64,000 nt of DNA, from positions 1,178,001-1,242,000 of the forward strand of contig JAPYXD010000745.1 of the NCBI GenBank assembly GCA_030998225.1, in the 5' to 3' direction. Positions 2,431-63,611 of the stretch are shown piece by piece. The stretch's first letter is position 1, and every line of letters begins with the position of its first letter. This stretch comes from Diplolepis rosae. Its lineage: Eukaryota > Arthropoda > Insecta > Hymenoptera > Diplolepididae. The notes below the pieces were generated by a model. The model was not told the origin of the DNA. It made no database searches and was given only the letters and a program-made list of their open reading frames with translations. A program made the position numbers and the translations under genes.

Positions 2431-3936
2431 TACCTCAAACTGTCTACAGGTCGCCTATAAGTTCGAGATGTGAATCCTCTTTTAACAAGGATTAATTCCG
2501 AATAAGTTTTCTGGGTGATTTAGGAATCAAATTTTTTCCGGACTATTTCTATCTTGAAAATTTCCTAAATTATCCTTAGTCTCTAGACCACTTTTGTCAG
2601 AGGTACTTCTAAGCAAATGCTGTGCAAGAATTGTGACATAGTGTGAAGAATAAATTCAGAAGCAAGATAATACTGCAAAATATTGTCTTTTACGTAAGTA
2701 TTCATTTGCATAAAATTGTTAATACAGTTATATTTTTGACGTGATAATAAGGTTTATTTTGTAGAAATTTAATTACATTGAGGAAATTAATTTGTGAAAC
2801 TACTCGAATGAGTTGAGTAAATATTTATTCAGGCTACTCTTTTCAGCCACAGTTAGATACAAAGACAATTGGATAAGTTTATTAAATATAGGAGTTTAAA
2901 AAAAAAATTAAAACAGAAGATTTATTGTGCAGTTCAATAATTAAAAGATAGTTTAACTGAAGGTTAAAGTATAATTCGCAGTTGTGTAAAATGTAAGGTA
3001 CAATGTAGTATGGTGGAAACCAGTCGAAGAAACCGTGAGAGTCTGCAAAGAAACTTTCAAGCAGTGTTTGCAACATAAAGCACTTACTTTTGAAAGCTTT
3101 GCTATATACATTTACACTTTCGAGCATATACACAATACACATATGCATACAGAAACATATAGTCTTGTTTATAGCTTATAATTTTATAAAATTTCGCAGA
3201 CATACAGTGTGAATACTTAGCTATGATTTACGTACATATATACTAAACTATTCTTATATTACACGCTTGTATAAACCTATACCCAAGTACTCGAAACTTC
3301 CATCGCTTCACATTGAGAGTAAAGTTTTGCACTGTCCTTCAATACTGATACCTTTATATTTATTTTTTTCTGTGTTATATTCTAAGTGGAACAAATGTCT
3401 CACTGCTTGTAAAAAATGACGCGCCAAAAATTGCTGGTTCTCCAAGTTCTATCTATAAAGGATCAAACATTCTATGGACCCAGGGTAATTTGAGAAAATT
3501 AGTACATTTTTCTGAAAATATTGTAGTTAAGGTTTGAATAAAATATTCAATAAATATAAACTTTCACTAACCGTTTGCTGACCATTCGCTGCGATCTCGT
3601 AATAATATAAATAAAAAGAGCATAAAAGACATTTAAATTGTTTCAATTATGATAAAAACGTAAAATTTAATATTGAATATTACATTTTCAATTTTACGTT
3701 ACACATATTTTCATCTCACTTTTTTGCAGCCTAATCACAGACTTTTCATTCAAAAAATGAATTGCTTTACGGAAAGGTAAAATTTTCTAATAGAAGGAGA
3801 TAAATTAAAAAGCTGAAAAATGTGTTGAGTGATATTTGCATATGACCACATAAGTATTTATTAATTTCAAATTTGACATGAAAATTTTTTTTTCAAGTTA
3901 GTGTTTAAATCTTGTCACGATTTTACAAGATCTTAT
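2431..3936. other. Non-coding arm DNA with relative at 32.7 kb
   Basis: No gene is supported here. An 88-codon frame at 2882-3148 (minus; mirrored 20255-20521) lacks any recognisable domain. From about 3660 onward the sequence matches 32700-32966 with moderate divergence, so it belongs to an interspersed repeat family. The mirror lies at about 19470-20970. Confidence 0.6.
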
Positions 3937-4418
3937 CCCTATTGAAAAACTTGACGTAAAAAATGACGTAAAAAACGACGTAAAAAATGGCGTAAAAAAT
4001 GACGTAAAAAATGACGTAAAAAACGACGTCAAAAATGGCGTAAAAAACGACGTCAAGAATTGGGATAGTTTTTTACGTCATTTTTTACGTCATTTTTTAC
4101 GTCAAGAATCTGTTGTCTTGAAAAGTGATATTGAAAAAGTGTGCGTGCATGTTGTAAATAATGGCACTGAGTATTTGTGTGTGGTACCTAATTTATACTC
4201 TTATTAGAAAAATATAGTCGATTCATTATATTTAATTGAATATACTCTTATAGAATCAGTAAACTAAAGTTAACCATAAAATATTGTACTATTTATTTTC
4301 CTCTTACATTTTTATGTCACTCCTTTACGGTAGGCGATTAAATATAAATTGTTTAGGCTTCTTAAAGAAAAACTTTACATAAAAAATGACGTAAAAACTT
4401 TACATAAAATCAATAGGG
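3937..4418. mobile_element. 482-base foldback MITE with 12-base repeats, left arm
   Basis: Ends CCCTATTGA / TCAATAGGG are flanked by AT on both sides. The left part is a run of 12-base units of the type GACGTAAAAAAT or GACGTAAAAAAC. After a short loop the same unit returns inverted as ATTTTTTACGTC, and further GACGTAAAAA units lie near the right end. The related sequence at 32966-32967 lacks the whole element, which defines it as an insertion. No coding frame. Confidence 0.75.
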
Positions 4419-5194
4419 ATGGACAGCTGCAATCTGTTAAATGGAATATTTTGTAATTCTTAACTTGCCTGTTCTTATGAAATCGTATGAAAAATTTAAA
4501 GTCGATAAATGGTTAAAATTTTATATCAAGATTTTAATTACAACATTTTGCAGCTTTGTGAATAAACTGTTTCATTTAGAAAATACTTCAACTCTGTAAA
4601 GCATATTTAAATTTTAAGTATAAAATCCGTACTTAAGTCACAAAAAGTAAGATAAAAATACTCTCATTATAAAATTAAGAATGTAGATTTAGCACTCATT
4701 AGGTCAAATGTTTATTTTTTCTTCATGTAAAATACTTTGCACATAATTCTCTGATTAAATATTTTTTAAATGTTGGAACATTTAAGAAATTCATGAATAT
4801 TTAACCTATTTATAAAAAAACTAAAAATTAACAAATAAAGCTTCGACTGAAAAATCTGAGAATTTGTCAATTGTTGATCTTTTTTCTTGTAAATTTGAAC
4901 ATAGGAGGACTTGAAATACCAAAATGACATTATTTTCCAAGTGATGGTTAAACCTTTCTTTATTTTTATGAGGATTCTTTCCGACGTTTATTTCAGGTGA
5001 GTGACTTTTTTTTAATGAAAGATTTTGTAATTCTAAATTATAGGCTCATCTTGTAACATTGTAAAAAGATTTAAAAACTTTAAAGTTAATTGTATAATAC
5101 AAGTACTTTTATCCCAAGTTTTAGTCGACCTATCTACAGACTTTTAATTTGAAAATTGGGATTCTTTATAAAGAGGAAAAAATTGTGTTATTAA
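4419..5194. other. Non-coding arm DNA, repeat family shared with 33 kb
   Basis: No gene seen. It aligns by eye with 32967-33640 in forward orientation and with 33730-33990 in reverse, showing that an inverted version of this family exists elsewhere. The mirror lies at 18216-18984. Confidence 0.6.
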
Positions 5195-5596
5195 CCCTCC
5201 GTTACCAAACTTAAAAATTGCTAGACGGTTACCAAACCCTAGAGGATTTCTCCCTGCGTGTTAGAACATCTGCAGTGTTGCCAAATGTTGCGACTACTTG
5301 GTTGAACATGTAACATCAAAATGTGGCAACACCGCACTCCAGGAACTCAAGCTATTTTCATTGCACGAAAGCCAAACTATGGAGGGATTCCCTCAGAATC
5401 CACGCACCTCTGGTTTTGAAAAGTGATTATTGAATGAGTATTCTTACTTGAACATTTTTTATTGCTACAAAAAGCTTCAGGAATAATTCGTGGAAAGGTA
5501 TTCAAACGGACCAGACTGTGTCAAGCGCAAAATAGAAGTTATTTCGAAAAAACTGACCCCACTGAGGGAATCCCTCATATGTTTGGTAACGGAAGG
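5195..5596. mobile_element. piggyBac-like MITE, TTAA duplication, left arm
   Basis: Ends CCCTCCGTTACCAAAC and GTTTGGTAACGGAAGG are flanked by TTAA at 5191-5194 and 5597-5600. TTAA duplication and CCY termini are the hallmarks of piggyBac-type transposition. The related sequence near 33723-33726 has a single TTAA and no insert. Sub-terminal inverted pieces GAGGGATTCCCTCA and TGAGGGAATCCCTC occur inside. No transposase frame, so it is non-autonomous. Confidence 0.8.
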
Positions 5597-5600
5597 TTAA

Positions 5601-7671
5601 AGCAGTTAATTCCCAGAGTTTGAATATCTTTCATTTAATATTTTGATTTGAAACATTGAAAATATTATTGAAATTGATATACCAAAGACAATTTAATTTT
5701 AATACGGATATATTCATATTTCAATAAACCTGTATATCAGCTGAAATCAATATTCCAAAATATTTGAATCTTCAGACTTATACATTTCAAGCTTAATTTG
5801 TTCATGATACATTTTATCAAACTTTAATAAAAAGTTATACTTTTTTATGTTATTTTATGACAAGTTGCATGCATTTAATACATTTTTTTCATAATAATAA
5901 TTGCCCAAATAAAATCCCATTCTACTGTTTGAAAGTTTACTCAACTGCTTCGGAATCATTTTTAATTTGCTATCGAATAATGAAACAAAATTATTGTAAA
6001 ACTTCCTCCTAAGCCTTCCCAGATAGCAAAATGTCCACATGGAGCCCGCATGGTGCGGGCGCAACGTGCGTATTAATCCGCACGTCGTGAGGGCAAGGTT
6101 TGAGACACTTGTGTCAACAATTGCGTCGCATATGCGCCGCACGATGTGCGGGCACGCATGTGTCGGTATATTGCTCTCATACAGTTACGCAATGATTAGT
6201 TTCAATAAATATTACATGTTTATAAAAGTGACAAAAACAATGTGTTACGACAGTTTTAGAAAAAGGTTCCTGATTCAAAAATAATTTTTTTACATTGTTA
6301 AAAAAGACAGGAGTTATTTAAGCTAAATGCGATACTCTACATTTAATTATTGTTTCTGTCATTATTTGAAATGCTGAAAATTAGTATAATATCAATAAGA
6401 ATAAGACGGTGAAGAGGCAGTTGTTTTTAACAAATAATATTTTTATTGTATTAAAAGTATGAAAATACGAGTAATTCGGTTTTCTTCTTTAAACATATAT
6501 AAACCTTCCGTATATAAGATATATTTAAAGTATAATCGTAAAAGAAACATAATTTGAACGCATTTTTCTATTAAATAGACAACGCTAAGATATATTTTTT
6601 TGTTTTATCAAGCCCTTTGTCGCGCTTTTTTGACTAAAAAACTATAATCTTAAGGGAAAATTTGTTATAATCCAGGGTGTACAAAGACCCCCGAAGCATA
6701 AAATAAAATACGATTTTAAAAAGTTTATAAATGTTAGAACTTTTCAATTTCAATTTAAAAAATATTATATCACTTTAAGAAACTCGATCGAGTCTAGTCG
6801 GGAGGTTTTTGTACTCCGAATAGGAAAACTATTAAAGCATTAGAACTTTGGTTATTTTTAAACACTTTTTTAAAAATATACAAAGATTACTTTCTCAAAA
6901 ATCGCAACTTTCTTCTTGCTAAATTGTTACTGTGTAAAAAATTCTTTTAACCATAAAAGTGCTTTGGCACGCTTGAAGCTTACCTGATTTTCAGTTTTAC
7001 GACTAAGAATTTAGCGCAAAAATTTAAGTAAAAAGAAAGGTTGGGTTTTTGAGAAGATCGTCTTTGAATATTTTCAGGAAACCCGCCACCATTTTTCTAA
7101 TTTTCAATATTTTTTAATTTTCCAACCACGTGTTGAAAAAGGGCAATAAACCTCACTAGGTACAGAAAAAAACTTCAATATCTTAATTAGTTCAAAAGTG
7201 ATAAAAGTTTTAGAAAAACTGTATTTTTTTAACACCTTTAAAAAATTAATTACTCATAACTTCGCGAAATTTTGTCCCTCAAAACATTATTAAATACGTG
7301 TCGTTTTATTTTCCTTAAAAAAAAAAAACATTTCCTCGGCGACCGATTCTGTGACTTGAAATTGTACTGCATATCTTATTTGAAATGGATTCGGTCTGGG
7401 TATTTTTAAGTTACACTTTAAGGACTTTTTATTGGCCGGAGAAACTGAATTCAATTTTTAGGTTCGAGTTTGTGCACACTCTGGAACGTATTAAGATACA
7501 AGAACTTTGGCCCTTCTTGGGCCTTTATCAGAATAATTTGTTAACGACATAAACTTATAATCATGAAATGAACAATGAAAGAAACGTACAACGAAATTTA
7601 AAATAATTTATCACGCCCTTTTTCGATCTTTTTGATTAAACCTCTATAATTGCAAGAAACAAACTTTGGTC
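5601..7671. other. Non-coding arm DNA with GC-rich hairpin patch
   Basis: Mostly AT-rich with no supported gene. A GC-rich patch at about 6035-6165 contains GCCCGCATGGTGCGGGC, which can fold into a tight stem, and repeated CGCAC/GTGCG words. Frames through the patch (5855-6142, 6039-6284) look incidental. The mirror lies at about 15740-17811, with the patch at 17245-17375. Confidence 0.6.
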
Positions 7672-46753: not shown

Positions 46754-47870
46754 TGTGACGCGCCGAGCCGTTTTGGCGATAAACGTCGGTAATTTTTAAA
46801 TTTAACTTTGAATAAAATTTAAATTGTTTAATCCTGAGTATGGGTTCACCACTTTTAAAGAGTGGAAACTCACCTTGCCCGAGTTATCTAAAATGGGTAA
46901 CCTTATTTAATTAATTTAAAATTAAGCTAATTATCCGTAAAAGGTAATAATAATAATACGTAATTTATAAGATTACACTAATGAAGCTTTTATTATGAAT
47001 ATAAAAATATGTTAGAAAAGATAAAAAACTTTACAAAAAACTCTAAGTCCAAACAGTAATAATTGAAAAGAAAAGAGAGACCGACAAAATAATCTGATCC
47101 AGTGCGGATCTACCTATCGAAACGTCAGATTATTTCTGGTCCTTCGTCGATGCAGCCTCTCGCGCTTCGCTGACGAAAATCCTTTGCGCACACTTACTGC
47201 GTTTCCCCACTAATTAATTAGAATATTATAAGCCAATCAAACGCATTTTTTATCCCTTCTTTTTAACATTTTCTCTGAGGGATTTCATATGAGCTTAAAG
47301 TCACGTTTCCTAAACACAAAATTCGTTAGAAATTTAGATCGTTAAATTTAACGACGTGTAAAAGAAAATCTCTCTCGACATCTTAAAAGTCTTTATCAAC
47401 TACTTATCTGTTTTTTTACCGCGACAATCCGTTGCCTCGGTCCGTTTTAAACTAAACAAAATTGAACTATCCTGATAACTAATATTAAACCTTATTTCTA
47501 TGAAAAATCAACTATAAATTCTATCAAGACGTAAAAGTAAGCCTTACGCTAGCAATTTATAAATATTCTAAATTATTAAACAAAGTTCGTTATGTTCCAT
47601 CAAATTTCATCACTCTCATTCTCCATTCTACAAATTCATATTATAGTATAATATTATTTCATGTCGAATTGCTCCTTAGTCTCTAGTTTTGCCAATCTCG
47701 ATTATCTCTATTCTATATTTCTTAAATTATTTTAATTTAAATCTTTTGTTTTATACTTTTCTTTCCTTTACTTAGTAAAGGAAGTCTTCAGTGTCAATTA
47801 AAATGTCTTAATTCAAATATTACCGCTAATTTTAAAGCGCACTCTTGTGACAAAAATGGCCATCGTCACA
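46754..47870 (-). repeat. Gypsy 3' LTR
   Basis: TGTGACGCGCC ... GGCCATCGTCACA, near-identical to 62456-63611. It lacks about 39 bases present in the other LTR (at 62979-63018), where CTCTGA joins directly to GGG; the missing piece is bounded by TGA repeats. Confidence 0.92.
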
Positions 47871-47881
47871 CTCCTCCCCTT
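47871..47881 (-). other. Gypsy polypurine tract
   Basis: AAGGGGAGGAG on the minus strand immediately precedes the 3' LTR, the expected primer for plus-strand DNA synthesis. Confidence 0.75.
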
Positions 47882-49648
47882 ACAAAAAGGGCGCTTCCAT
47901 AGAACGGCTGTAACACGCGGAAGCGATTCAGCGCGCGAAACTCAATTAATTTAAATGAAGACTGAGTTCATTTCCACAATTAAGGGTTTGAAAACCCAAC
48001 CCTGCGGTGAAATCTCCTTCCTCGTAGATTTTAGATCCTTGGTATTTAATTTGAAGTGAAAATAAGGAATAAATGGTAATTTTTATACTCGGTAGTAAGT
48101 AAATTTATTAAAGTTTTACAATATCAAAATATTTACAATATCGAGTAGTCGCGAGCGCATTCTAATTGAGTCTGATCTAGTCTAAGTTTCTAATTGCTCC
48201 GAAATCGTGAACCTCGGTACCACCAAGTGGTCCTTGGCTTCCCCATCCTTTCACTCTCTGTCATATACCTTCACCAATCATATTCATTCTAATCCCTACC
48301 TTCGATTATAGAGAATTCATAATAATTACGCAATGGTTTACTACTGAGAATAGCGAACTCTTGTTTCATAGTTTTGCGATAAAGTCCGAGCGTGAAAGAA
48401 TTTATAAACTTAACAGTCAATCCGCGACCAATACTCAGAATAAGTCTTATCTTACGTCCAAATAGTGGTCGAGTCGGTCCTTGTCAAAAGCAAAGCCTTA
48501 CAGATTGGCGACTTCATGTCGTCAGTTCTTGATATTGAAATCTAAATTACTCAACTTACAATCTAAGTTAATATTATTAAGTTGCCTATATAGCATTTCA
48601 CATTCAAACCATCATCTTCAATCATACCGACATTCTATTCTAAATTGTTATGAAGAAACTTTATCTTCTATGTTTTGCCGACGTGCCCAACTATTGCTTG
48701 CCAATCTTATCGCAACTTGATTTCTATAGATTAAAAGTTTAATCTTTCTTCTTCTTATATATATTTTTAATCATTTCCTCACTTATTTCTATTAATTTTA
48801 ACTTATAATTTTCAAATGAAACCGCGTATTGTAGCCGCGATAGTACTGTTCCTAGCGGAAAAACTGTGCATTTACATGCGCCCGTCACACGGCCTTTTCC
48901 GAACATAGTTTGTTTTGAATTTGCTGCGGTGGAAATTAAGTGTCCTTTAATTGTATGTGGATAAATTTTGATTTGCTTTTTGGTAAGTATTTAATCCTTA
49001 ATATAATTCATCTAATCTATTTCATAGCCATTATAACTCACTTCAATGTACGCATGTTCACTATAATATATTTATAGGTTATATCCCGTTTCCCCCCTAA
49101 TAACAAGCATTAAAGGTGTATTAACACACTAAACAACCTTTATTTATTTATTTTTTATTTATGACATGTAGTTCTCAGCTGATTTCAAGCAATTTAAAGT
49201 TAAAGTTAATATATATGTGAACATAATCATGAGTGTTCCACGGTATGGGGTATCCACCCAGGAGGAAAAAGAACACCGTTTACTAACTGAATATCATTAT
49301 TAATTTTTTAAAAATTTAAAATAATTTTTAATCATAGAAATGATAATTAGTAAGGTATTTTTCATTTTATAGTTTTATTTACAATGTCTTAATAAACCTG
49401 TTACTTTTTAGTGATCTAATTCTCAAAAGGCACTGAACAAGTGTTTATTCATAGCTGACACTCACGAGCAAGTAATGCCTGCACACTTGGATGCGATGCT
49501 GTCTCCCTGACCTACGACAACCACGTGCTCAACGCTAATAAAGCTGAGAATTTACTTGATGGCAATCAAATTTTTATTAATTTAAATATATATATATTTT
49601 TTTGCATGGATAAAAATATTTACTCAAATAACGTCCTTACTCATGATT
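47882..49648. other. Gypsy 3' non-coding region
   Basis: About 1.77 kb between the pol stop and the polypurine tract, without a long frame on the minus strand. The plus-strand frame 48481-48720 has no domain. An envelope gene would sit here in an errantivirus; none is visible. Confidence 0.7.
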
Positions 49649-52600
49649 CTACGTAAATCGCAAATAAGCATGTCTTACGCGATTCATGTGTACTATTTTA
49701 GTTTCAGTTCGAGAAATTTGCAATTCTAAATTTACGTTATTTAAAATTTTTTTAATTTTATAAGGTCCTTCATAATAATCATCAAGTTTGTCACAATTTT
49801 CTACTAAAAGCATTACGTGTTCTCCTACTTGAAAGGTTTTTTCATTGAGTTTAAGATCGTAATATATTTTGCAGCGCTGCTTTGCGGTTTCAAGTCTGGC
49901 TGCACACAAGGATTTAGTCTCTACGATTTTGTTTAACAATTCATCGACCATACCTATATACGTTAAAGGTATGTTTTCTTCAGCAAACTCCGAAGGAAAT
50001 CGAACTTTGCGTCCGAAAACAGCCTCATGTGGAGTTATTCCCGTGGATTCATGGACCGATGTATTAAATGAAAACATTGCGTAAGGCAACCACTGGTCCC
50101 ACGTTACTTTAGAGCTATAATGACGTAAGTATTCTACGAATGTATGGTGACTCCTTTCAAGTGCACCTAATGATTGAGGATGATATGCACTAGAATGGTA
50201 TTGCTTGATCTTAAACAATGCGGCAAAACTATTCATAAGTTGACTCATAAATTGACTACCTTGATCGGTTTGAATTATTTCCGGGCAACCAAAAATACAA
50301 ATGATATTTTCTGCTATCGCTACAGCTACGTGTGGAGCATCTATTTTTGACAACGGAATAGCACCTGAATATTTGGTAAGGCAGTCTTGCCACGTAAGAA
50401 TGTGCGTATCCCCTGATTCTGTGGTTGCTAATGGCCCTACAATATCTATTTGCACCTTCTCGAGAAATCTTTTTGGCGTATCTGTAATCTGCATCGGCAA
50501 TTTAATTGTTTGTCTTTTTAACTTTTTTCTTTGACACGAATCGCATGAACGAACATAATCTCGAATTTCTTCTCGCATGCCTTTCCAGTAAAAACGCTCA
50601 CGAACACGCTCAAACGTTTTATTTTCACCCTTATGCCCTGCCATTGTCGAATCATGACATTCTTCAATAATTCTCAGTCTATCTACCTCAGGTGGAGTTA
50701 TAACCTTACCGTTACAAATACAAATCTCAAAGCTACCATCACTAAAATAGGTTCTAAATATTTTTTCTATCACATTCCAAGGTACATTGTCTAGTACATT
50801 TCCTATTCTTGATACACTAATAGTTTTTAAGTTCATTGATTCCATTGCACCTTGTAGTGTAGACACGGCTAATTCAATATTTTTCGCAAATACTTTAGAA
50901 TCATAGGTTTCTTTTATGAAAAGGTTAAAAATAAATCGTTTATTTTGTTTTACGGATGTTACGGTTCCTAATTCAGGGTTTACTTCACGAATGTCAGACA
51001 AAGTTATTAAAGAATTTTCCATTAGTTCTCGACCCGTTGGTGTTGTCAATATACCATCACAAGAAACGAAATTGATCAAGTGATCATTTCTCAAAAATAA
51101 CTTATCATTGCTAATTTTGAATAAGGGCTTAAGTATAATATTTCCTTTCTTTTGTTTCGCGATCAGGACGGATTTCGTAACAACGGACTCGCCATTCTCA
51201 ATTCGCATTTTCTTTGCCGAAATTTTGCCCTTTACTGGCACCTGTTTAATTCGAATAACATCATTCCAAATACCCTTTATCTGTGAAGTTTCTCTTTCAC
51301 CAATATTGTCACTGTCATAATCGTCATTGCATATAGTCATTTTTTTTATGTTAACAATCCCTGTCTCATTCTTATCATAGGTCGAGTGCAGTGCTTCCTG
51401 ATGGATAGGTGGTCCCTCAAAGTGGTTGGCCAGGCCACACTTCTCTCTCTCTCCGAGTATATGGATTACTTCACTAGTGACTCCACACTCTTTAAAATCA
51501 CGATTTTTCCTCTTACTTCTCTCTCCGAGTAAAGGGATCAAGTCATAATTGACTTTTTCCACACTCTTCAAAACCCAATTCTTTCTCTCTCCATTGGGTT
51601 CATCGTGAATTGCTGAGGGACTTACACCCCTATCCTTGATTCTCGTCAGAATCCTACTCTCTCCGCACTTAAAGCACTCACCGTCTTCTAGATTCTCGTC
51701 TCTCTCATCCTCACAATCAGTCTCACAATCTGTACTGTCTTCATTTCCGAATTCTCTGGATATATTCGGAAAAACTCTCTCAATGGGATATTCATGAAAG
51801 AGAACTTCATTTCTAACATTCAAATTTTTTGACATTATATCATTAACTTTACAAACATCACTCTCCCCACTACCTTTGTTATTTATCGGATTTCTCGAAA
51901 GCGCGTCCGCGTTGGCGTTTACCCGTCCTGGTTTAAAAACGACTTCGTATTCGAACTTTCGCAGTTTGATTTTCCATCTAGCTAGCCTTGAACCTACAGT
52001 TGGATCTTTCAAATTTAACAGCCACACTAAAGGTCGATGGTCCGTTACTAATATAAATTTTTGACCATAAATGTATGGACGAAATTGTTTTATCGCAAAA
52101 GTTATGGCTAACAATTCCTGTTCGGTAGTTGTGTAATTAAGTTCTGCACTATTCATAGTACGAGAAGCATAAGCTATTGGTAAGTCTTGCCCTATAGGTC
52201 CTTGGCTAAGAACGGCGCCTAACGCGAAACTACTACTATCTGTCGTCACTACAAAAGGTTTAGAAAAATCAGGGTATTGTAATAAAGGTTTGCAACATAA
52301 AATTTCTTTCAGTCTATCAAAAGCTAATTGTGCTTCATTCGTCCAATGAAATTGAATATTCTTTTTTAACAATTTTATTAATGGCTTAGCTACTGTTGCG
52401 AAGTTTTGAATAAAGCGTCTATAGTATCCTGACAAACCGAGAAATTGTTTGACATTTTTACGTCCCTTGGGAACAGGAAATTTCGCAACTGCTTCAACCT
52501 TTTTTGGATCTGGTTTGACCCCATTTTCAGATATCGCATGACCCAAATAAACTATTTCCTTACAAAGAAATCGACATTTTTCAGGTTGTAGGACTAAGCC

Positions 52601-54514
52601 AGCTGTTTTTAAGCGACCCAGCAACCTTTCGAGTTTCTCCTGGTGCTCCTTCAGGGATTTTGCGTAAATGACTATATCGTCCATATAAATGAACAACTCG
52701 ACACCCTGCAATCCTGAGAGAATCCTGTCCATAATCCTCTGAAAAGTAGCTGGTGCATTTTTCAAGCCGAATGGCATTCTGGTAAGCTCAAAATGACCAA
52801 AAGGCGTTGAAAAGGCAGTTTTGTGTCTATCCTTAGGTTCTACTTCAATCTGATGGAATCCGGAAGCCAAGTCAAGCACTGTGAAGTACTTTGCGCCCCC
52901 CAACTGGTCTAATATATCTGTAATATTAGGCAGTGGGTAAGCATCACCCACAGTTTTTTCGTTAAGCGAACGGTAGTCAATAACCATCCGCCAACGTTTA
53001 TTGCCAAACTCGTCTGGCTTCTTAGGAACCACCCATACTGGAGAATTATATGGGGAGTCTGAATTCTGAATTCGTTTATCTTCATAAAGTTCTTTACATT
53101 CCTTTTCTACAAATTCTGCATGAACTTTAGGCAATCTATGATTATGTTTTCGTACTGGATCGTCGTTAATTGTATTAATACTATGTTTCAAAATATTCGT
53201 ACTTCCAAGTTTATCACCTTCTAAATAAAACTGATATGGAAATTTATTAAGTACTTTATGTAAACTTTCCCTTTCTTCCGAATTGAAATTTGTCAGATTT
53301 AGTGAATTTATCAGTTCTTCATGTCTACTTCTAGAAGAATTTGTTGCATTTTTATTCCTGGTAGCTCTCTTTTTAGTTCTTGGATTTGGTTCAATTTTTT
53401 CAAACTCTTCTATTTCTACTGGGGGTATTGATATTTGCAAATCCTGAGTAGATGTGTTTATACAATAAACACGAACGGTTCCTTCTTTTACTGTGACTAA
53501 ACTTTTTCCTAAATACACTCCCGGACCTGCTGGTATTTTTGGTAAATAACCCTCCTTTAAATTTGTTGGTTTTACTGGTAACGTAATTAACTGTTTAGTT
53601 CTAGCCTTTAAATTTAACGTTATTGCCTTATTTTCAATTAATATAGAAAAATTACCAAACTCATTTTGAATTTCTTTTTCTTTCAGGTCTATAACGGATT
53701 CAGACAAAAATGGCATCCCTACCATACCGTCGGATTCTATTGGAAAACGGTTGGAAATCAATTGTCGTTTCTCACACTCTGCAATAATATGTCCTGTCTT
53801 TTTACAATAAGCATAAAATTTTGTAATATTCTTGTTTTCAGAACAATTTCGAGCTAAATATCCGATTTTATGGCAATTATAACAAATTGGACCCTTATTG
53901 TCTGGGCATGCTCTAGCAAGATGATCCGGCTTTTTACAAATATAGCAAACTCTTTTTTCGCTCTCAATGACGCGTAAACAACCCTTAGCTAGATGACCTA
54001 CTTCGCCGCAACGCTGACAATCTCCTGATGGTCCTGATGCTTTCGCATTTCTATTTTCGTAATTAGTGTCTTTTCTGGTATTTCTGTATCCCATACCTCG
54101 GCCACGACTTTGTCCTATCCCCCTGCTAAACTCACCCCCAACCTTACGGGCTTTGGCATTACTATGATACGGTCGGAATCTTTCTTGAGTATTTGCTGAT
54201 TTTTTCGAATCTTGATCTTGAGTTATTTTGTCTGACGTCATAATTTCCGGACATTTTCTATTTAATTCAGATTCATATCCAATTTCCCATTCTGCAACTC
54301 TAGCAAGATTGATTGCCTCGTGTAAAGTATTTGGTCTACCTACTTTGACACGAACAACTAAATCACGTTTCAAACCAATCACGAAGTTTTCACAGGCCGT
54401 ATCGCGAGCTGATTTAATCATAATTTTGGCCACATTTTCAGAATTCAAATCTTCGATTAATTCAATAAGAGAAGTTAAAATCTTTCCTACCCTAGTTCCG
54501 TACTCTAAAACTTT
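49649..54514 (-). CDS. Gypsy Gag-Pol polyprotein with macrodomain (5' cut off)
   Basis: Residues are numbered from codon 54448. Four zinc knuckles lie at about 144-225; the third has Tyr in place of His and the fourth lacks its first Cys. The usual D-T/S-G protease site is missing; only a GMVGMPFL flap-type block remains (241-248). Reverse transcriptase spans about 470-640 with YMDD at 588-591. RNase H acidic residues are Asp737, Glu776, Asp803 and Asp848. An unusual 400-residue inter-domain region follows, acidic at 903-922, with three GERxxK-type repeats, then a macrodomain at about 1105-1250. Integrase has His1265, His1272, Cys1302, Cys1305 and Asp1335, Asp1395, Glu1431 (D-x35-E), then a GPY-type end. 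Relative to the gag fragment at 61104-61692 the frame is off by one near the A5 run at 54512-54516. Confidence 0.9.
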   Translation of the reverse strand, partial: KVLEYGTRVGKILTSLIELIEDLNSENVAKIMIKSARDTACENFVIGLKRDLVVRVKVGRPNTLHEAINLARVAEWEIGYESELNRKCPEIMTSDKITQDQDSKKSANTQERFRPYHSNAKARKVGGEFSRGIGQSRGRGMGYRNTRKDTNYENRNAKASGPSGDCQRCGEVGHLAKGCLRVIESEKRVCYICKKPDHLARACPDNKGPICYNCHKIGYLARNCSENKNITKFYAYCKKTGHIIAECEKRQLISNRFPIESDGMVGMPFLSESVIDLKEKEIQNEFGNFSILIENKAITLNLKARTKQLITLPVKPTNLKEGYLPKIPAGPGVYLGKSLVTVKEGTVRVYCINTSTQDLQISIPPVEIEEFEKIEPNPRTKKRATRNKNATNSSRSRHEELINSLNLTNFNSEERESLHKVLNKFPYQFYLEGDKLGSTNILKHSINTINDDPVRKHNHRLPKVHAEFVEKECKELYEDKRIQNSDSPYNSPVWVVPKKPDEFGNKRWRMVIDYRSLNEKTVGDAYPLPNITDILDQLGGAKYFTVLDLASGFHQIEVEPKDRHKTAFSTPFGHFELTRMPFGLKNAPATFQRIMDRILSGLQGVELFIYMDDIVIYAKSLKEHQEKLERLLGRLKTAGLVLQPEKCRFLCKEIVYLGHAISENGVKPDPKKVEAVAKFPVPKGRKNVKQFLGLSGYYRRFIQNFATVAKPLIKLLKKNIQFHWTNEAQLAFDRLKEILCCKPLLQYPDFSKPFVVTTDSSSFALGAVLSQGPIGQDLPIAYASRTMNSAELNYTTTEQELLAITFAIKQFRPYIYGQKFILVTDHRPLVWLLNLKDPTVGSRLARWKIKLRKFEYEVVFKPGRVNANADALSRNPINNKGSGESDVCKVNDIMSKNLNVRNEVLFHEYPIERVFPNISREFGNEDSTDCETDCEDERDENLEDGECFKCGESRILTRIKDRGVSPSAIHDEPNGERKNWVLKSVEKVNYDLIPLLGERSKRKNRDFKECGVTSEVIHILGEREKCGLANHFEGPPIHQEALHSTYDKNETGIVNIKKMTICNDDYDSDNIGERETSQIKGIWNDVIRIKQVPVKGKISAKKMRIENGESVVTKSVLIAKQKKGNIILKPLFKISNDKLFLRNDHLINFVSCDGILTTPTGRELMENSLITLSDIREVNPELGTVTSVKQNKRFIFNLFIKETYDSKVFAKNIELAVSTLQGAMESMNLKTISVSRIGNVLDNVPWNVIEKIFRTYFSDGSFEICICNGKVITPPEVDRLRIIEECHDSTMAGHKGENKTFERVRERFYWKGMREEIRDYVRSCDSCQRKKLKRQTIKLPMQITDTPKRFLEKVQIDIVGPLATTESGDTHILTWQDCLTKYSGAIPLSKIDAPHVAVAIAENIICIFGCPEIIQTDQGSQFMSQLMNSFAALFKIKQYHSSAYHPQSLGALERSHHTFVEYLRHYSSKVTWDQWLPYAMFSFNTSVHESTGITPHEAVFGRKVRFPSEFAEENIPLTYIGMVDELLNKIVETKSLCAARLETAKQRCKIYYDLKLNEKTFQVGEHVMLLVENCDKLDDYYEGPYKIKKILNNVNLELQISRTETKIVHMNRVRHAYLRFT
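50699..51136 (-). other. TARG1/OARD1-like macrodomain inside Gypsy pol
   Basis: Residues 1105-1250 of the polyprotein. The order and spacing match the ADP-ribosyl hydrolase TARG1: DHLINFVSCD near 1122-1131 (first strand and Asp), KRFIFNLFIKE at 1170-1180, then about 30 helical residues, then SVSRIGNVLDNVPWNVIEKI at 1211-1230 and EICIC at 1241-1245. Lys1179 falls where TARG1 has catalytic Lys84 and Asp1220 where it has catalytic Asp125. The glycine-rich loop that holds ADP-ribose is altered (TTPTG). TARG1 removes ADP-ribose from glutamate; whether this copy does is unknown. It is in frame with reverse transcriptase and integrase, so it is made as part of the polyprotein. Confidence 0.78.
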
Positions 54515-54531: not shown

Positions 54532-54742
54532 TGTTTGGTGAACAGTTGATTCGAATTTACCGCTTTAGCGCCTCCTATTGTTGGATCTTGACATCTTCAT
54601 CTTCGAAAGCTCCTATAGCGCTCCCTTGTTTTTGTACCAAGTAACCTTTTTTTAATGGCGAATATATTGTATAATTGACCACGCACGTCTTGTTCATTTT
54701 TCGATTTTTTCCTGTGAAATCCAGCACAAGCTATTACTAACA
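54532..54742 (+). repeat. BEL 5' LTR
   Basis: TGTTTGGTGAACAG ... TTACTAACA, with the same boundaries as 60893-61103. Differences include TCTTCATC against TCTTTATC and ACCAAGTAAC against ACCATGTAAC. Confidence 0.95.
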
Positions 54743-54760
54743 TGGTCCTTCGAGCCGGAT
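54743..54760 (+). other. BEL primer-binding site
   Basis: TGGTCCTTCGAGCCGGAT directly follows the LTR, the usual primer-binding sequence of insect BEL/Pao elements. Confidence 0.8.
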
Positions 54761-55397
54761 CGCATCGATAGCAAAGTCAAGTGTAATCAAATCTGGTATT
54801 TCGATGGGCATGAAAGGCCTAAATGTGAACAATCAATGCGATAGTTAATTCGAACAAACAGCGCGTCGTATCGTCACAAGTGCGAGTGCGTGGCTTTGAA
54901 CAATTTTCAATTTTGGACTTTCAATTTCGGGACAAATGCCTGTACAAGGTAGCAAACTTAGACTTCGTTGGTGACAAAACCAACTCTAGAACTGACTTCA
55001 ATTCGCCATTCGAAAACACCTGCAAATCGTAGTGCAACAAGCAAGTGTTACAAACTTCAAGCATCGCCATATTTAATTGCTACAAGGCGTATATCGTTCA
55101 ATCACATCACTTCTTCGAGCTTCGTCTCCGTTAACGGAATTCAACGCAGAGGCTACCATCAAGGTCACCACAGTCCCTGAAAACCCTGGAAAGGATCATC
55201 ACTTCGTATTAACGTCTACTGCAGGTTTTGGTTAGAACAAAACATCGCTTCGCCCATTTGCATCGCAGAATCTAAACATTGTCGATTCCTGGAGGGACGT
55301 CACGAGTTAAAAAGGTCACGTGAGCATTCCTTTGTCCATTCACTTACCCTTTCACCTGCTTCTGTCCGAAATGACAGACTGTCAGAAACTGTACTGA
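54761..55397 (+). other. BEL 5' leader
   Basis: Untranslated leader between the primer-binding site and the first Met codons. Several short upstream frames, none with a domain. Confidence 0.7.
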
Positions 55398-58300
55398 ATG
55401 AATTGGGCAACAATGCCGCCAAAAAGCAAAAAAGAGAAATTAGTTAAACAACGCGAATCTACAAAAATCAAATTAAACCTTTTTATCAAACATATAAATT
55501 TTATCGCGCAAACATATCTCGATGAGCGGATCACATTGCCTGAATTAGTAAAGTTGGAACTGAGTTGTAGGTTAGATCATTTAAAATTGGCATTTCAAGA
55601 TTTCGAAGAATGCCAAGGAGAGTTGGATGAGCTAACCGACGATGAAGTAGAAGCTACCGATTATCGCGAGAACTTTGAATCAGAGTATTTTCGAATATTA
55701 GCTCAAGCACAATGCTTATTGTCGCGTGGAGCGCCAGTTGCTCGGGCTCAACCTCCCCCAATCCATGATCCACAAGGAAATAATGCAGTTAATAATAACC
55801 TCAACGCACCGCGCTTGCAAAATGTCAAGTTACCGACGATCGAATTGCCGAAGTTTGGAGGCAAGCTCGACGAGTGGTTAGGTTTTCGCGATACTTTTAC
55901 TTCACTGATTCACGAAAATGCTCAAATTAGTAATATCCAAAAATTTCATTATTTAAGGGCAGCATTAGAAGGCAATGCTGAACAAGTAATAAAGTCTCTT
56001 GAGCTTTCCGCGACTAATTATACCGTGGCTTGGGAAACCCTGCTGAATCGATTCGATATCAAAAGTCTTTTAATACACAACCACATTAAGGCAATTTTTG
56101 AAATTGAACCTATTCATAAGGAAAGCGCATGTTTAATTCGGAAAATTTTAGATAATTTAAACAAGCATTTGAGAGCTTTAACAGCATTAGGCCAACAAAC
56201 CAATCATTGGGACGTTTTATTAATTTACATCGTATCAACAAAATTAGATAAAATAACTGCGAGGGCTTGGGAAAAAGAAAAAACAGAAAATGAAGAACCT
56301 TGCACATTAGAAGAATTGCGAAAGTTTTTGGAGTCTAGAGCTGACATGTTGGAGACATTAGAAATAAACAGTTTTCAAGCAGACAAGAAATCTAAACCAA
56401 TCAATGTCAACAATCTGTCAAAAAAATCTCTCCTTACGAAAAGAATAAATTGCGTAATTTGTGAAAGCGAACCCCATATCCAACAATGTCCTAGGTTTCT
56501 TGAGCTCTCTCCCCAACAAAGGGCCGAAAAGGTAAAGAGTTTCAAGCTTTGTATAAATTGTTTTAGGCCAAGACATTTTGTAAAAGATTGTAAGGGTTCT
56601 AGGTGTCAGAGGTGCCAAAACAAACACAATACACTTCTGCACTTCGAGAAAGTCGAATCAGATAACACATTAGATGCTTCGCCATCGCAAGAAACCAAAA
56701 CTGTCACGTCATGTTGTATTACCATCAAGGATGATGGAATTTTGTCCACAGCATCGGTATTAGTAGCAAGTTTCAATAATCAATTTAAGTCAGCTCGTAT
56801 GGTTTTGGACAACGGCTCTCAAACGGGACTTATTTCTGAAGAACTTTGCAATTCACTTAATTTACAAAAAATACCTATAGATGTTACTCTGAGCGTTGTA
56901 AATAATCTTGCATCTAGTATCAAATATAGATGTAACGTCAAAATTCTTTCAAAAATAAAAAATTTTGAATTCAAGGTTTCGTGTCTTGTTGTTCCGGAAA
57001 TCACAAATCACACTCCAAGTTCAACAATTAGTGCAATCGTTTCAAAGATTCCTTCTCATCTCAATTTAGCGGATCCTCAATTTGACAAGGCCGGTAAAAT
57101 AGACCTCTTAATCGGTAACAACGTGTTCTGGAATTTGATTTGTGTAGGACAAGTTAAGTTGAATAATGACGGTTTGATTTTGCAGAAGACTAGGTTGGGT
57201 TGGATTCTGGCAGGTCCAATTCCGGAGTTTTCACTGAATCCTCAATTCAACATGATTCTTTGCAATCTGAGCAAAACCGAACATGTTGAAAAGCAAATAA
57301 TCAAATTTTGGGAACTAGAGGAATGTTCAAACGAAAGGTCAAAATCTGCTGAAGAAAAATCGTGTGAAGAATTTTTCTTGAAAACCTTAAGTAGAGATGA
57401 AACAGGTAGATTTATCGTTACAATTCCGTTGAAGGCAAATCTTAATAATTTAGGTGAATCCAAGGAGAAAGCTATGCGACGGTTTTTGCAATTGGAAAAA
57501 AGGTTAGAAAGAAAACCTGAACTTAAAAAAGAGTACACACTATTTTTAACCCAGTACGAGAATTTTGGGCACATGACCAAGGAATTGGATGAATCAAGAT
57601 CTCCTTACTCGTATTATATGCCACATCATTGCGTGGTTAGAGAGGATAGCAGTTCGACAAAGGTACGCGTAGTGTTCAATGCCTCGGAACCAACCACAAG
57701 TGGAGTGTCCTTCAATGACCTTCAAATGGTGGGACCAATCCTGCAAGATGATTTATTTTCAATCTTGGTTCGTTTCCGGAAGCACTCTTATGTCGTGAGC
57801 AGTGACATAGAGAAAATGTACCGTCAGGTCCTCGTAACGCCTGCACAGCGTCCTCTTCAACGAATATTGTGGCGCTCAGATCAAGACCAGCCAGTGCAGA
57901 TTTACAACCTAAACACTGTCACCTATGGTACGGCATCAGCTTCGTATCTCGCTATTAGGTGTCTTTTCCAATTAGCGGATGATTGTGAACAAGAGCTTCC
58001 CAACGTAGCCAAAACGATCCGAAAGGATTTCTACGTCGATGATTTGGTCACTGGGTCCGATTCAATAGAGGCGGCAAGGTCTCTCGCGAGGCAGGTGTCC
58101 CAAGTCTTGGAAACTGGGGGCTACAAGCTCAGAAAATGGGTATCAAATCACCCTTGCATAATTGAAGGAATGGAAGATAAAGAACATTCAGACAATTTGA
58201 TCAGCTTTGCGAATGACGATCAAGTAAAAACTCTTGGCTTAAGATGGTAAGCGAATTCAGACAATTTGAGTTACGCGGTATGTGTCTCAAACAACACAAA

Positions 58301-60572
58301 AATTACCAAAAGACAAATCCTATCAGAAATATCTTGCATTTTTGATCCTCTCGGTCTTCTGGGTCCCAGCATCGTATTGGCCATAATTATTCTGCAAAGG
58401 CTTTGGTTGGAAAGTCTTTCATGGGACGAGAGCTTGCCAGTCGAACTTCATTCGCGGTGGTTAATTTATAGGGAACGACTCACAGCCTTGAATCTGATAA
58501 AAATACCAAGGCACGTCATTTGCAAGAAACCCATCAATGTGCAATTACACGGGTTCTCTGACGCCTCGAAGGATGCGTACGGAGCCTGCATCTACATGCG
58601 ATCAGAAGACGAGGAAGGAAATGTCATTGTTAGACTGATATGTTCCAAATGTAGAGTCGCACCCGTGAAAACTCAGACTATACCTAGGTTGGAACTTTGC
58701 GGGGCCCTCGAGTTGGCAAAATTAAGTTCTAAAGTCGAAGCTGCGTAAGATTTGTCGATCAATAATAATCATTATTGGTGTGATTCGACTATTGTGTTGT
58801 TTTGGCTCCAAATGCAACCCAACAATCTAGAAGTTTTTGAAGCAAACAGAGTGGCTCGAATACAAGAATTAACAAACGTGGGGTCATGGAAGCACGTTCC
58901 CAGCCAGAGCAACCCAGCTGATTGCATTTCACGTGGTATTGCTCCAAATTTTCTCGAGAATTGTAGATTGTGGTGGGAAGGCCCTGAATTTTTGGGCTTG
59001 AGCGAATCTGATTGGCCTTCAATGCCATCATTGTCTCATGACGTGCCGGGAACGAAAAAACGTTGCAACCTTGTAGCCAAAGAAGAAATATGGGACCTAT
59101 CTATTTTTAAACGATACCAAAACCTAGATCGACTTGTTAGAGTAGTATCTTATTGCAAAAGATTTTCAAACAATTGCAAAACTAAAAACAACAAACTAAT
59201 AGGGTACCTACGCACTATCGAGCTTTCTCAAACAAAGATTGATCTCGCAAAACTTTCGCAAAGACAAACCTTCTCCAAGGAAATCAAAATGTTGACTGAA
59301 GGGGTGCCTATAGCGAAAGGCTCATTAGCTTCACTAAACCCCTTTTTAGATGATTGCGGAATTTTGAGAGTTGGCGCTAGATTGAATAACTCCAATTTCA
59401 ATGAGAACAAAAAACATCCTATACTTCTCTCCGCTTCAGATGATTTTACAAAAATGTTGTTCCATAGTGAGCATCAACGCCTTCTCCATGCTGGTCCTCA
59501 GCTGCTGTTATCTTCAATTCGTCAATTGTTTTGGCCATTGGGAGGACGAAATTTGGCTCGAAAGGTTGTTAGGTCTTGCGTTAGATGTTTTAAGGTTAAT
59601 CCTAGAGAAGTTACGCCTATGATGGGTGACTTACCAAAGCTTAGAGTCACACCTTCCCCACCTTTTTCTACCACCGGTGTAGATTATGCCGGTCCTCTTA
59701 TCATAAAGGACCGAAAGGGACGAGGCTCAAAAACCAGCAAGTGTTACGTTGGTGTGTTTGTATGCTTTTCTACGAAAGCTGTCCATCTCGAGCTTGTTTC
59801 TGACTTGACAGCTGACGCCTTTATCGCGACCCTTAGACGCTTTGTGTCCAGACGCGGCAAGCCTTCTCATATCTATTCTGACAATGGGACTTGTTTTGTG
59901 GGTGCAAAAAATGAGCTTGAGCAATTGGGTAGATTCCTGCAAAACGTGGCTGAGAACCTTTCAGAGATAATTGAGAATATGGGGCTCACTTGGCATTTCA
60001 TTCCAGCTTATTCTCCTCACTTTGGTGGAATTTGGGAAGCTGGAGTGAAGTCCACCAAGTATCACCTGAAGCGCGTTACGGGTAATAATGTGTTGACCTT
60101 TGAAGAATTATATACCTTGTTAGTTCAAATTGAGGGACTGCTAAACTCTCGCCCCCTCACCCCTCTTTCTTCTGACCCTAGTGATCTGTCTCCATTAACT
60201 CCTGCTCACTTTTTGATAGGAAGACCTCTTGACTCTATTGCTGATCCTGATTTAACGCATCTTCCTGAGAATCGGCTTTCCAGATGGCAACTGATTCAAC
60301 GCTTGCAGCAGCACTTTTGGAGAAGATGGAGCCAAGAATACGTTTCCGAGCTTCAGCAACTTGTCAAATGGAAAAGCCCGTATCCGGAATTGAAAAAAAA
60401 CACTCTTGTTTTGATCAAAGATAAAGATCTTCCTTCATTGCGATGGAAGCTTGGAAGGATTATTATGTTTCATCCAGGGAGTGATGGTACTTTCCGTGCT
60501 GTTACCATCGAAACAAGTACAGGCACATTAAGACGTGCACTTGCGGCTGTGTGTCCTTTACCCATTGACTAA
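55398..60572 (+). pseudogene. BEL/Pao Gag-Pol polyprotein, two in-frame stops
   Basis: One reading frame of 1725 codons with TAA at 58248-58250 and 58746-58748 and no frameshift. A likelier start than 55398 is the Met at 55413. Part 1 (950 residues): Gag of DUF1759 type near 140-330, Cys/His knuckles at 352-415, retropepsin DNGS at 471-474, reverse transcriptase from about 735 with YVDD at 879-882. Part 2 (58251-58745): end of the Peptidase_A17-type region and RNase H start (HGFSDASKDAYGACIYMRS). Part 3 (58749-60572): rest of RNase H, integrase zinc site with His238, His246, Cys276, Cys279, catalytic Asp311, Asp377, Glu429 of that part, and a DUF5641-type C-terminus. All catalytic residues seem intact; only the two stops prevent full translation. 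Confidence 0.92.
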
Positions 60573-60880
60573 AACTAACGTTAAGTTTTTTTTTTTTTTA
60601 TATAAAAAATGTTTGTCTTACTTCACTCCATCACAAAGTTTGTTTGTTTAATTCACTACAGGTTTAGTAGCTTAGTTTAGTAAATTTTCTATAACATTTT
60701 TATGTGTAACCATGTTCGAAATTACTGTTGGACTACGTTCTGATATTTTGAATTTATTCTTAAGGATATTCTATGTCAATTCTCATGATTAATATAAAGG
60801 GATTAGCTATAGATAATACTTATGGGTTTACGCATACAGTGTAAATGTCCTGCATTATTATTGAAAGCAGAATCTCTCAA
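60573..60880 (+). other. BEL 3' non-coding region
   Basis: A poly-T tract follows the stop, then 250 AT-rich bases up to the purine tract. No gene. Confidence 0.7.
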
Positions 60881-60892
60881 TGCTGGGGGGCA
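60881..60892 (+). other. BEL polypurine tract
   Basis: TGCTGGGGGGCA lies immediately before the 3' LTR, the standard BEL/Pao form. Confidence 0.85.
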
Positions 60893-61103
60893 TGTTTGGT
60901 GAACAGTTGATTCGAATTTACCGCTTTAGCGCCTCCTATTGTTGGATCTTGACATCTTTATCTTCGAAAGCTCCTATAGCGCTCCCTTGTTTTTGTACCA
61001 TGTAACCTTTTTTTAATGGCGAATATATTGTATAATTGACCACGCACGTCTTGTTCATTTTTCGATTTTTTCCTGTGAAATCCAGCACAAGCAATTACTA
61101 ACA
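60893..61103 (+). repeat. BEL 3' LTR
   Basis: Matches 54532-54742 with three visible substitutions and ends TTACTAACA before the ATAGG duplication. Confidence 0.95.
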
Positions 61104-61692
61104 ATAGGTCTTCTAATGAATCAATGTCCCGATCTTGAATTGAATCATAAGCACTTCCTGAAATTCTCGTACGAATCATAAGAAATAAATTGTGTCGTTG
61201 TTTAGAAGAAATAGAATTTCTCGCGTAAAGACAATCTTTAATAAATCTTGAAACAGGCATATTATGACCATCAAAAAATTTAGGCAAGAATTCCAGGGCT
61301 GCTTTGAAAGGAATAGGATCCTCAGGCTCTGCCAATGCAAAATACATATTTGAACTCGATGTGACGGATGCGCTGGATGTGCCAGATGATAGACTATTAT
61401 TTCTCGCTTCACGACTTTCAGCTAACTGTAACTCGGAATTACTACTAGAGCCGCTCGCTTGTTCAAAACCAGACCGTCCACTATTATCCGGAATATTTAA
61501 CTCTGCGCCTGCTTCTACAACCCTGCTTCGCAAATTCAAGACTGGACGAACGATTTCATTATTTCTAGCCTCATTTAATTCTGCTAAGGCCTCGCTCCCA
61601 ACAGATTGACTCATGGTTGTACCACGGCCTCTACCTGAAGTTTTTCCCCCTCTTGACACTTTTCCTCTAGTAGATTTTGTAGTTTTCCCCAT
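61104..61692 (-). pseudogene. Gypsy gag, 5' fragment
   Basis: Starts MGKTTKSTRGKVSRGGKTSG, with a Lys/Arg/Gly-rich then Ser/Asn-rich N-terminus. From about residue 125 a gag-like helical capsid region begins (ALEFLPKFFDGHNMPVSRFI ... SLEDL). The BEL element interrupts it after 196 codons. The continuation is on the far side of the insert at 54526 and downward, where a one-base shift also separates the two frames: the gag frame reaches a stop at 54492-54494. Confidence 0.8.
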
Positions 61693-62433
61693 TTTATAAA
61701 ATTTAAGAAAATCAAAGTCAAATTCAAAATGTTTTCTAAAATATTTTTTTTTTTTTTAATTTTATTTTATTTCAGAGATTGGCAATCCTGACTAATTAAA
61801 AGAGCAAAACGACTTACATTAAGACTTTCTCGCTGATGCCTGACTTGCATACACTTTCACTTTGAATCACTGTCACTTGACACACTTTGTTTTCACTTTT
61901 CACTTGCAAGTCAGCCTTTTCGGTTTGAAGTCCTAATCCTTATCTCCAAAAAATCCACAGAAGTTCTCCAAAAATCCAGAAAGACCTAGATGATTTTTTT
62001 TTTCTCCAGCAATTCCTCGTTGGGTCTGACAACAGCGGGTGACACCCCTTTTTGACCTTGAGGTGGCGGGACCCGAGTTGCTTCACAGCTTCGACCTTTT
62101 GCCGCTTAGATCTCCAGGAAACCCGCTAAAAACTTCAGCCTCAATCTCCTTTCCACCCACTTTCACTCAGCTACTCAATCCACCAAATTACTAAGGTAAT
62201 TTTTACCTTTTTTTTTTTTTTTTTTAATTAGTACTCAGAGAAAAAAGGCCATCCTCTTCAATGATCCAGATCCCGGTCCTTGATGCTCGTCGAATTCTCC
62301 AAAAATCGTAGTCCTCCAGTTCAACTTTTATTAAATACATGAATATGTATGTATATGGAAATTTTATTTTATTTTCACAGTCTCAATGTTCGGTTTTGAA
62401 TCACAAAGTCACTCGCGGCAAGTTTTGTAGTAT
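61693..62433. other. Gypsy 5' leader
   Basis: Untranslated region between the primer-binding site and gag, with poly-T runs near 61743 and 62209. No gene. Confidence 0.6.
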
Positions 62434-62451
62434 ATCCCACTTCTGACACCA
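62434..62451 (-). other. Gypsy primer-binding site
   Basis: The minus strand reads TGGTGTCAGAAGTGGGAT four bases inside the 5' LTR end, a form common in Gypsy elements. I did not assign the tRNA. Confidence 0.65.
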
Positions 62452-62455
62452 ATTA

Positions 62456-63611
62456 TGTGACGCGCCGAGCCGTTTTGGCGCTAAACGTAGGTAATTTTTA
62501 AATTTAACTTTGAATAAAATTTAAATTGTTTAATCCTGAGTATGGGTTCACCACTTTTAAAGAGTGGAAACTCACCTTGCCCGAGTTATCTAAAATGGGT
62601 AACCTTATTTAATTAATTTAAAATTAAGCTAATTATTCGTAAAAGGTAATAATAATAATACGTAATTTATAAGATTACACTAATGAAGCTTTTATTATGA
62701 ATATAAAAATATGTTAGAAAAGATAAAAAACTTTACAAAAAACTCTAAGTCCAAACAGTAATAATTGATAAGAAAAGAGAGACCGACAAAATAATCTGAT
62801 CCAGTGCGGATCTACCGATCGAAACGTCAGATTATTTCTGGTCCTTCGTCGATGCAGCCTCTCGCGCTTCGCTGACGAAAATCCCTTGCGCACACTTACT
62901 GCGTTTCCCCACTAATTAATTAGAATATTATAAGCCAATCAAACGCATTTTTTATCCCTTCTTTTTAACATTTTCTCTGAATCATAATCTCTACTTCTAA
63001 TTCTTTGAATGCACGTGTGAGGGATTTCATATGAGCTTAAAGTCACGTTTCCTAAACACAAAATTCGTTAGAAATTTAGATCGTTAAATTTAACGACGTG
63101 TGAAAGAAAATCTCTCTCGACATCTTAAAAGTCTTTATCAACTACTTATCTGTTTTTTTACCGCGACAATCCGTCGCCTCGGTCCGTTTTAAACTAAACA
63201 AAATTGAACTATTCTGATAACTAATATTAAACCTTACTTCTATGAAAAATCAACTATAAATTCTATCAAGACGTAAAAGTAAGCCTTACGCTAGCAATTT
63301 ATAAATATTCTAAATTATTAAACAAAGTTCGTTATGTTCCATCAAATTTCATCACTCTCATTCTCCATTCTACAAATTCATATTATAGAATAATATTATT
63401 TCATGTCGAATTGCTCCTTAGTCTCTAGTTTTGCCAATCTCGATTATCTCTATTCTATATTTCCTAAATTATTTTTTTTAAATCTTTTGTTTTATACTTT
63501 TCTTTCCTTTACTTAGTAAAGGAAGTCTTCAATGTCAATTAAAATGTCTTAATTCAAATATTACCGCTAATTTTAAAGCGCACTCTTGTGACAAAATTGG
63601 CCATCGTCACA
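62456..63611 (-). repeat. Gypsy 5' LTR
   Basis: TGTGACGCGCC ... GGCCATCGTCACA, with the same termini as 46754-47870. It retains the roughly 39-base segment missing from the other copy and differs by scattered substitutions. Confidence 0.92.

Follow-up and report, generated by a model that had tools for sequence, protein, structure and literature searches.

Does a Ty3/Gypsy retrotransposon of Diplolepis rosae (Hymenoptera; Diplolepididae) carry a macrodomain related to the ADP-ribosyl hydrolase TARG1 within its polyprotein and, if so, what might such a domain do there? The question was raised by a 64,000-nucleotide stretch of contig JAPYXD010000745.1 (assembly GCA_030998225.1, positions 1,178,001 to 1,242,000; the whole stretch is called the window below), in which the initial annotation had placed a TARG1-like macrodomain, with Lys1179 and Asp1220 as catalytic residues, between the RNase H and integrase of a Gypsy polyprotein. 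Pfam analysis identified the reverse transcriptase (RT)-RNase H-integrase order of Ty3/Gypsy elements in an uninterrupted open reading frame (ORF) of 1599 residues, as annotated, and the segment concerned lies about 250 residues past the RNase H motif, before the integrase zinc finger.

Profile comparison and structure prediction both returned a macrodomain, with a fold and sequence closest to those of TARG1 and DarG (ALC1-like class). The profile matched TARG1 at 4e-15 and DarG at 0.054, making TARG1 the nearer of the two in sequence, and Lys1179 and Asp1220 align with Lys84 and Asp125 of TARG1. Together with the recurrence of the domain in many families and the purifying selection described below, these results support the presence of a TARG1-like macrodomain in the polyprotein. 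The window copy might instead be a private chimera or a chance resemblance, as the segment alone reached an E value of only 0.04 against PDB sequences in a single-sequence search, the linker piece had no Pfam match, and Pfam Macro (PF01661) did not figure among the 16 families matching 22 members at E values of up to 1, these 22 copies giving only scattered weak matches to other families. We nevertheless accord this explanation almost no probability: it was ruled out by the profile and structure matches, by the many matches in the genome and by those obtained with a TARG1 query; neither of the two outcomes set out in the initial annotation as refuting it was observed.

The 758 Mb genome of D. 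rosae contained 106 matches to a query consisting of the linker and the domain, and at least 150 matches to the domain alone (39-100% identity among the matches listed), with no internal stop in 124 of the 150 listed, as counted from the table. A human TARG1 fragment also yielded at least 150 matches, the best at 1.1e-13, with open frames of up to 1564 residues among the matches listed. The domain-only and TARG1 listings had 12 places in common and thus represent at least about 288 distinct places. The 90 loci fetched corresponded to 64 distinct places, which were picked for matching and therefore provide no independent count. A zinc-finger motif followed the domain by 9-10 residues, in frame, at 54 of these 64 places, so the segment is not private to the window and occupies the same position in related elements; of the remaining 10, five had frames ending within 13 residues and five had 38-66 further residues in which no match to the motif was found. 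In the structure model, about eight residues separate the last macrodomain strand from the first zinc-finger helix. Nineteen of the 64 places also had an RNase H motif in this frame, 232-393 residues upstream of the matched stretch; many of the fetched pieces did not extend as far as RNase H. At the eight loci read from the TARG1 search, the zinc-finger motif followed the domain in all eight and an RNase H motif preceded it in five. No host TARG1 gene was recognised among the 150 matches listed for this query, of which eight were read, all lying just before a zinc-finger motif, a sample too small to show that the host lacks such a gene. These data confirm that a large Gypsy group in this genome carries, inside its replication protein, a well-preserved macrodomain, a type of domain that removes or recognises ADP-ribose in other organisms.

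Selection on the domain was compared with that on its neighbours for 11 pairs of families or subfamilies, four of which (W-B, C-C3, F1-F2 and F1-F3) were usable for the macrodomain, six being saturated and one (W-A2) being a within-family comparison. The ratio of nonsynonymous to synonymous substitution rates (dN/dS) for the macrodomain was 0.05-0.07 in the four usable pairs, at dS values (0.67-1.49) that make these ratios rough. Similar values were obtained for RNase H (0.02-0.08, same four pairs) and, in the comparison called for by the initial annotation, for integrase (0.03-0.07, three pairs; C-C3 was saturated and unusable, with 58 codons), and those for the linker were 0.38-0.48 in the same four pairs. 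The W-A2 pair gave a macrodomain ratio of 0.26. Across eight families and subfamilies, macrodomain divergence was correlated with that of integrase (r=0.94), linker (0.85) and RNase H (0.82), and the domain therefore appears to have been inherited together with pol. In one pair of copies (L060 and L063), integrase was near-identical (dS 0.08), whereas RNase H (dS 1.5) and the macrodomain (dS 0.67) differed, suggesting recombination between element subfamilies.

The position of the catalytic lysine was occupied by K at 59 of the 64 distinct places and that of the catalytic aspartate by D at 52 of the 63 places with a letter, so the annotated residues are conserved at most places. The dyad equivalent to Lys84/Asp125 is present in the window copy and was lost in some lineages: replacement of the aspartate with Asn or His defines one lineage (seven rows, support 100/98), and both residues were lost in another (three rows, support 100/100). 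Members of three of the tree's four deep lineages (L085, L097-L099 and the window clade) have the dyad, pointing to an ancestral state. The phosphate-loop glycine was retained at 60 of the 63 places with a letter, with valine found only in the window copy (Val1218), at the position corresponding, in our alignment, to Gly128 of SCO6735 and Gly123 of TARG1. Replacement of SCO6735 Gly128 with glutamate lowered activity (PMC9411070). The dyad is not a requirement of the class: the Lys84/Asp125 dyad proposed for TARG1 is reduced to the lysine in DarG, and SCO6735, which is still active on thymidine-linked ADP-ribose, has neither residue (PMC9411070, PMC8501950).

We propose, with a probability of about 0.5, that a TARG1-class macrodomain of the ALC1-like type was captured between RNase H and integrase by an element ancestral to a large Gypsy clade, in which it was then retained as an ADP-ribose eraser, its putative hydrolase activity undoing host ADP-ribosylation. 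The macrodomain would be made as part of pol, would stay joined or near to integrase, and would remove ADP-ribose from the DNA of the element, from its RT or integrase, or from host proteins at the complementary DNA (cDNA) and integration site, such that ADP-ribosylation of the incoming element by the host would be undone. Thymidine-linked ADP-ribose in DNA is a substrate of TARG1, DarG and SCO6735, and the Glu/Asp-linked form is a further substrate of TARG1; a range including DNA or protein substrates would be expected from the macrodomain class. Lineages without the aspartate would be left with a lysine-only mechanism like that of DarG, or with binding alone.

Several observations weigh against this proposal, in addition to the roughness of the dN/dS ratios. 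The MGAG loop of TARG1 is placed at the diphosphate and distal ribose. In the Gypsy domains, this first loop is of a TT type at the places examined (glycine at 0 of 64 places in the two columns counted), and MGAG was not seen in the eight additional loci from the TARG1 search either; because of this change, the domain may bind ADP-ribose differently or not at all. For the same reason, we file the domain as TARG1-class rather than as a TARG1 orthologue, taking an MGAG-type loop as a provisional mark of TARG1 proper. The shared TT-type loop fits one origin, and the trees, in which the only outgroups were human TARG1 and one phage protein, suggest, but do not prove, a single capture. Both catalytic residues are gone in L077, L081 and L082, and, among the eight TARG1-search loci, His replaces Asp in L092-L094 and Arg replaces Lys in L095 and L096. 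A second structure model, of the macrodomain with the zinc finger, had a predicted template modelling score (pTM) of 0.66, with the mutual placement and orientation of the two parts poorly fixed.

The remodelling of loop 1 at every place examined and the loss of both residues in three loci would also be expected if the fold had been reused without ADP-ribose, as a structural or nucleic acid-binding integrase extension or as a spacer in pol maturation. We consider such reuse rather unlikely, given the retention of the Lys/Asp pair in members of three of the four deep lineages and of the phosphate-loop glycine at 60 of 63 places, but it draws further strength from the persistence of purifying selection without the aspartate. 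Ten pairs from the aspartate-less and dyad-less lineages were analysed, yielding three usable ratios, four saturated pairs and three pairs of near-identical copies. The usable ratios, all from the aspartate-less lineage, were 0.066, 0.077 and 0.099, all at dS >2; values of 0.56 and 1.56, as would be expected of insertions undergoing decay, were obtained for the near-identical copies of this lineage, and the near-identical pair lacking both residues gave 0.29, with too few changes to judge. As a ratio of 0.07-0.10 is maintained without the aspartate, the conserved role of the domain need not be hydrolysis.

The same selection, and the persistence of aspartate-less lineages and of one lineage without either residue, would be consistent with a reader rather than an eraser: an N-terminal integrase extension that binds to ADP-ribose carried by chromatin, DNA ends or modified proteins and directs integration, for which the chromodomain of chromoviruses provides a precedent (PMC9289625). 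The close in-frame spacing of domain and zinc finger at 54 of 64 places is also compatible with such a role, whereas the conservation of the lysine at 59 of 64 places goes beyond what mere binding would seem to need; on balance, we judge this explanation unlikely. The data show the fold, position, recurrence and purifying selection of the domain, the retention of the dyad at most places read and the loss of one or both residues in a few lineages. The eraser is the most economical reading, but the reader and the reused fold compete seriously with it, given the altered first loop and the selection that continues where the aspartate is missing.

Human TARG1/OARD1 (C6orf130) is a stand-alone enzyme, whereas the Gypsy domain lies inside the pol polyprotein, has a TT-type loop instead of MGAG and, in some lineages, lacks catalytic residues. 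The DarG macrodomain, a bacterial DNA ADP-ribosyl glycohydrolase antitoxin paired with DarT, is farther away in sequence than TARG1. Like the Gypsy elements described here, the RNA viruses with macrodomains (alphaviruses, coronaviruses) are genetic parasites with a macrodomain inside a polyprotein. The macrodomains of insect-restricted alphaviruses are described as having lost catalytic residues (PMC7729036). Gypsy elements with a chromodomain, or with the orchid AlkB-type 2-oxoglutarate-dependent dioxygenase (2-ODD), have likewise captured and kept a reader or enzyme domain, the orchid AlkB differing from the domain described here in being an extra ORF in one family rather than part of pol (PMC9289625). 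The main text of that source contained no word beginning with "macro", and no description of a macrodomain in a Gypsy or other long terminal repeat (LTR) retrotransposon was found in the literature searched, with most subscription journals and bioRxiv outside the reach of the search. Captured domains in Gypsy elements are, thus, already known. Chromodomains, unlike the macrodomain, sit at the C-terminus of integrase. We know of no macrodomain described for reverse-transcribing elements.

The coordinates of the element are collected in Table 1. The two LTRs (98.3-98.9% identity in two aligned blocks) flank gag-pol. The window copy appears to be broken, because a probable BEL/Pao-like element sits between pol and the putative 5' part of gag; the inserted element comprises three adjacent plus-strand ORFs (55398-60572). 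The 1.8 kb or so separating pol from the 3' LTR (47871-49648) contained no listed ORF of at least 100 residues, and a stretch beginning with TGG a few bases past the 5' LTR (62380-62460) may be a tRNA primer-binding site.

Table 1. Positions, in the window, of the Gypsy element, its domains and the element inserted into it.
Feature	Positions	Strand	Content or basis
ORF, 1599 residues, uninterrupted	49649..54448	-	CCHC knuckles (by eye), RT, RNase H, macrodomain, integrase
RT and RNase H	51953..53026	-	Pfam RVT_1, RT_RNaseH
Fast-evolving linker, RNase H to macrodomain	51131..51889	-	No Pfam match
TARG1-type macrodomain, ORF residues ~1107-1247	50708..51130	-	Profile, predicted fold
Integrase, H2C2 zinc finger and rve core	49649..50683	-	Pfam (piece scanned)
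Lys1179, equivalent of TARG1 catalytic Lys84	50912..50914	-	Alignment
Asp1220, equivalent of TARG1 Asp125	50789..50791	-	Alignment
Val1218, phosphate-loop glycine position	50795..50797	-	Alignment
5' LTR	62456..63611	-	LTR comparison
3' LTR, without 40 nt found in the 5' LTR	46754..47870	-	LTR comparison
Probable gag 5' part, ending at BEL/Pao-like insertion	60958..61692	-	Naming by inference
BEL/Pao-like element inside the Gypsy element	54532..61113	+	222-nt bounding repeats, 97%

Elsewhere in the window, positions 1-23398 form a near-perfect palindrome reaching the left edge, with inverted arms of about 11.4 kb per side (a chain with 99-100% identity in the main blocks), a 532-nt centre and mirrored ORFs; it is either a real inverted duplication or an assembly fold-back. 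No retroelement relative was found in viral contigs with the domain pieces, the integrase or profile A1, or in the genome_contigs scan. Profile A1 matched a single locus in the viral contigs (L091), a free TARG1-like macrodomain with both Lys and Asp kept, at positions 3752-4246 of the phage-like contig IMGVR_UViG_3300037455_000173; we take its neighbouring ORFs to resemble an NAD-dependent DNA ligase (4460-6160) and a dUTPase (6509-6943).

It is possible, if doubtful, that an animal Gypsy clade encodes an active ADP-ribosylhydrolase ahead of its integrase, which would strip ADP-ribose placed by the host on the DNA of the retroelement or on its integration complex. ADP-ribosylation would then serve in this lineage as an anti-retroelement defence and the macrodomain as a counter-defence, the recurrent losses of catalytic function reflecting shifts in this conflict. 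ADP-ribose is a tag in DNA repair and virus defence, and RNA-virus macrodomains counter host ADP-ribosylation. The families of these elements offer a set of naturally occurring active-site variants, and their sequences give a profile for finding the domain in genomes in which the Pfam Macro model misses it. If a large clade of retrotransposons does maintain a TARG1-class domain under strong selection, this would tie ADP-ribosylation to the control of retroelements.
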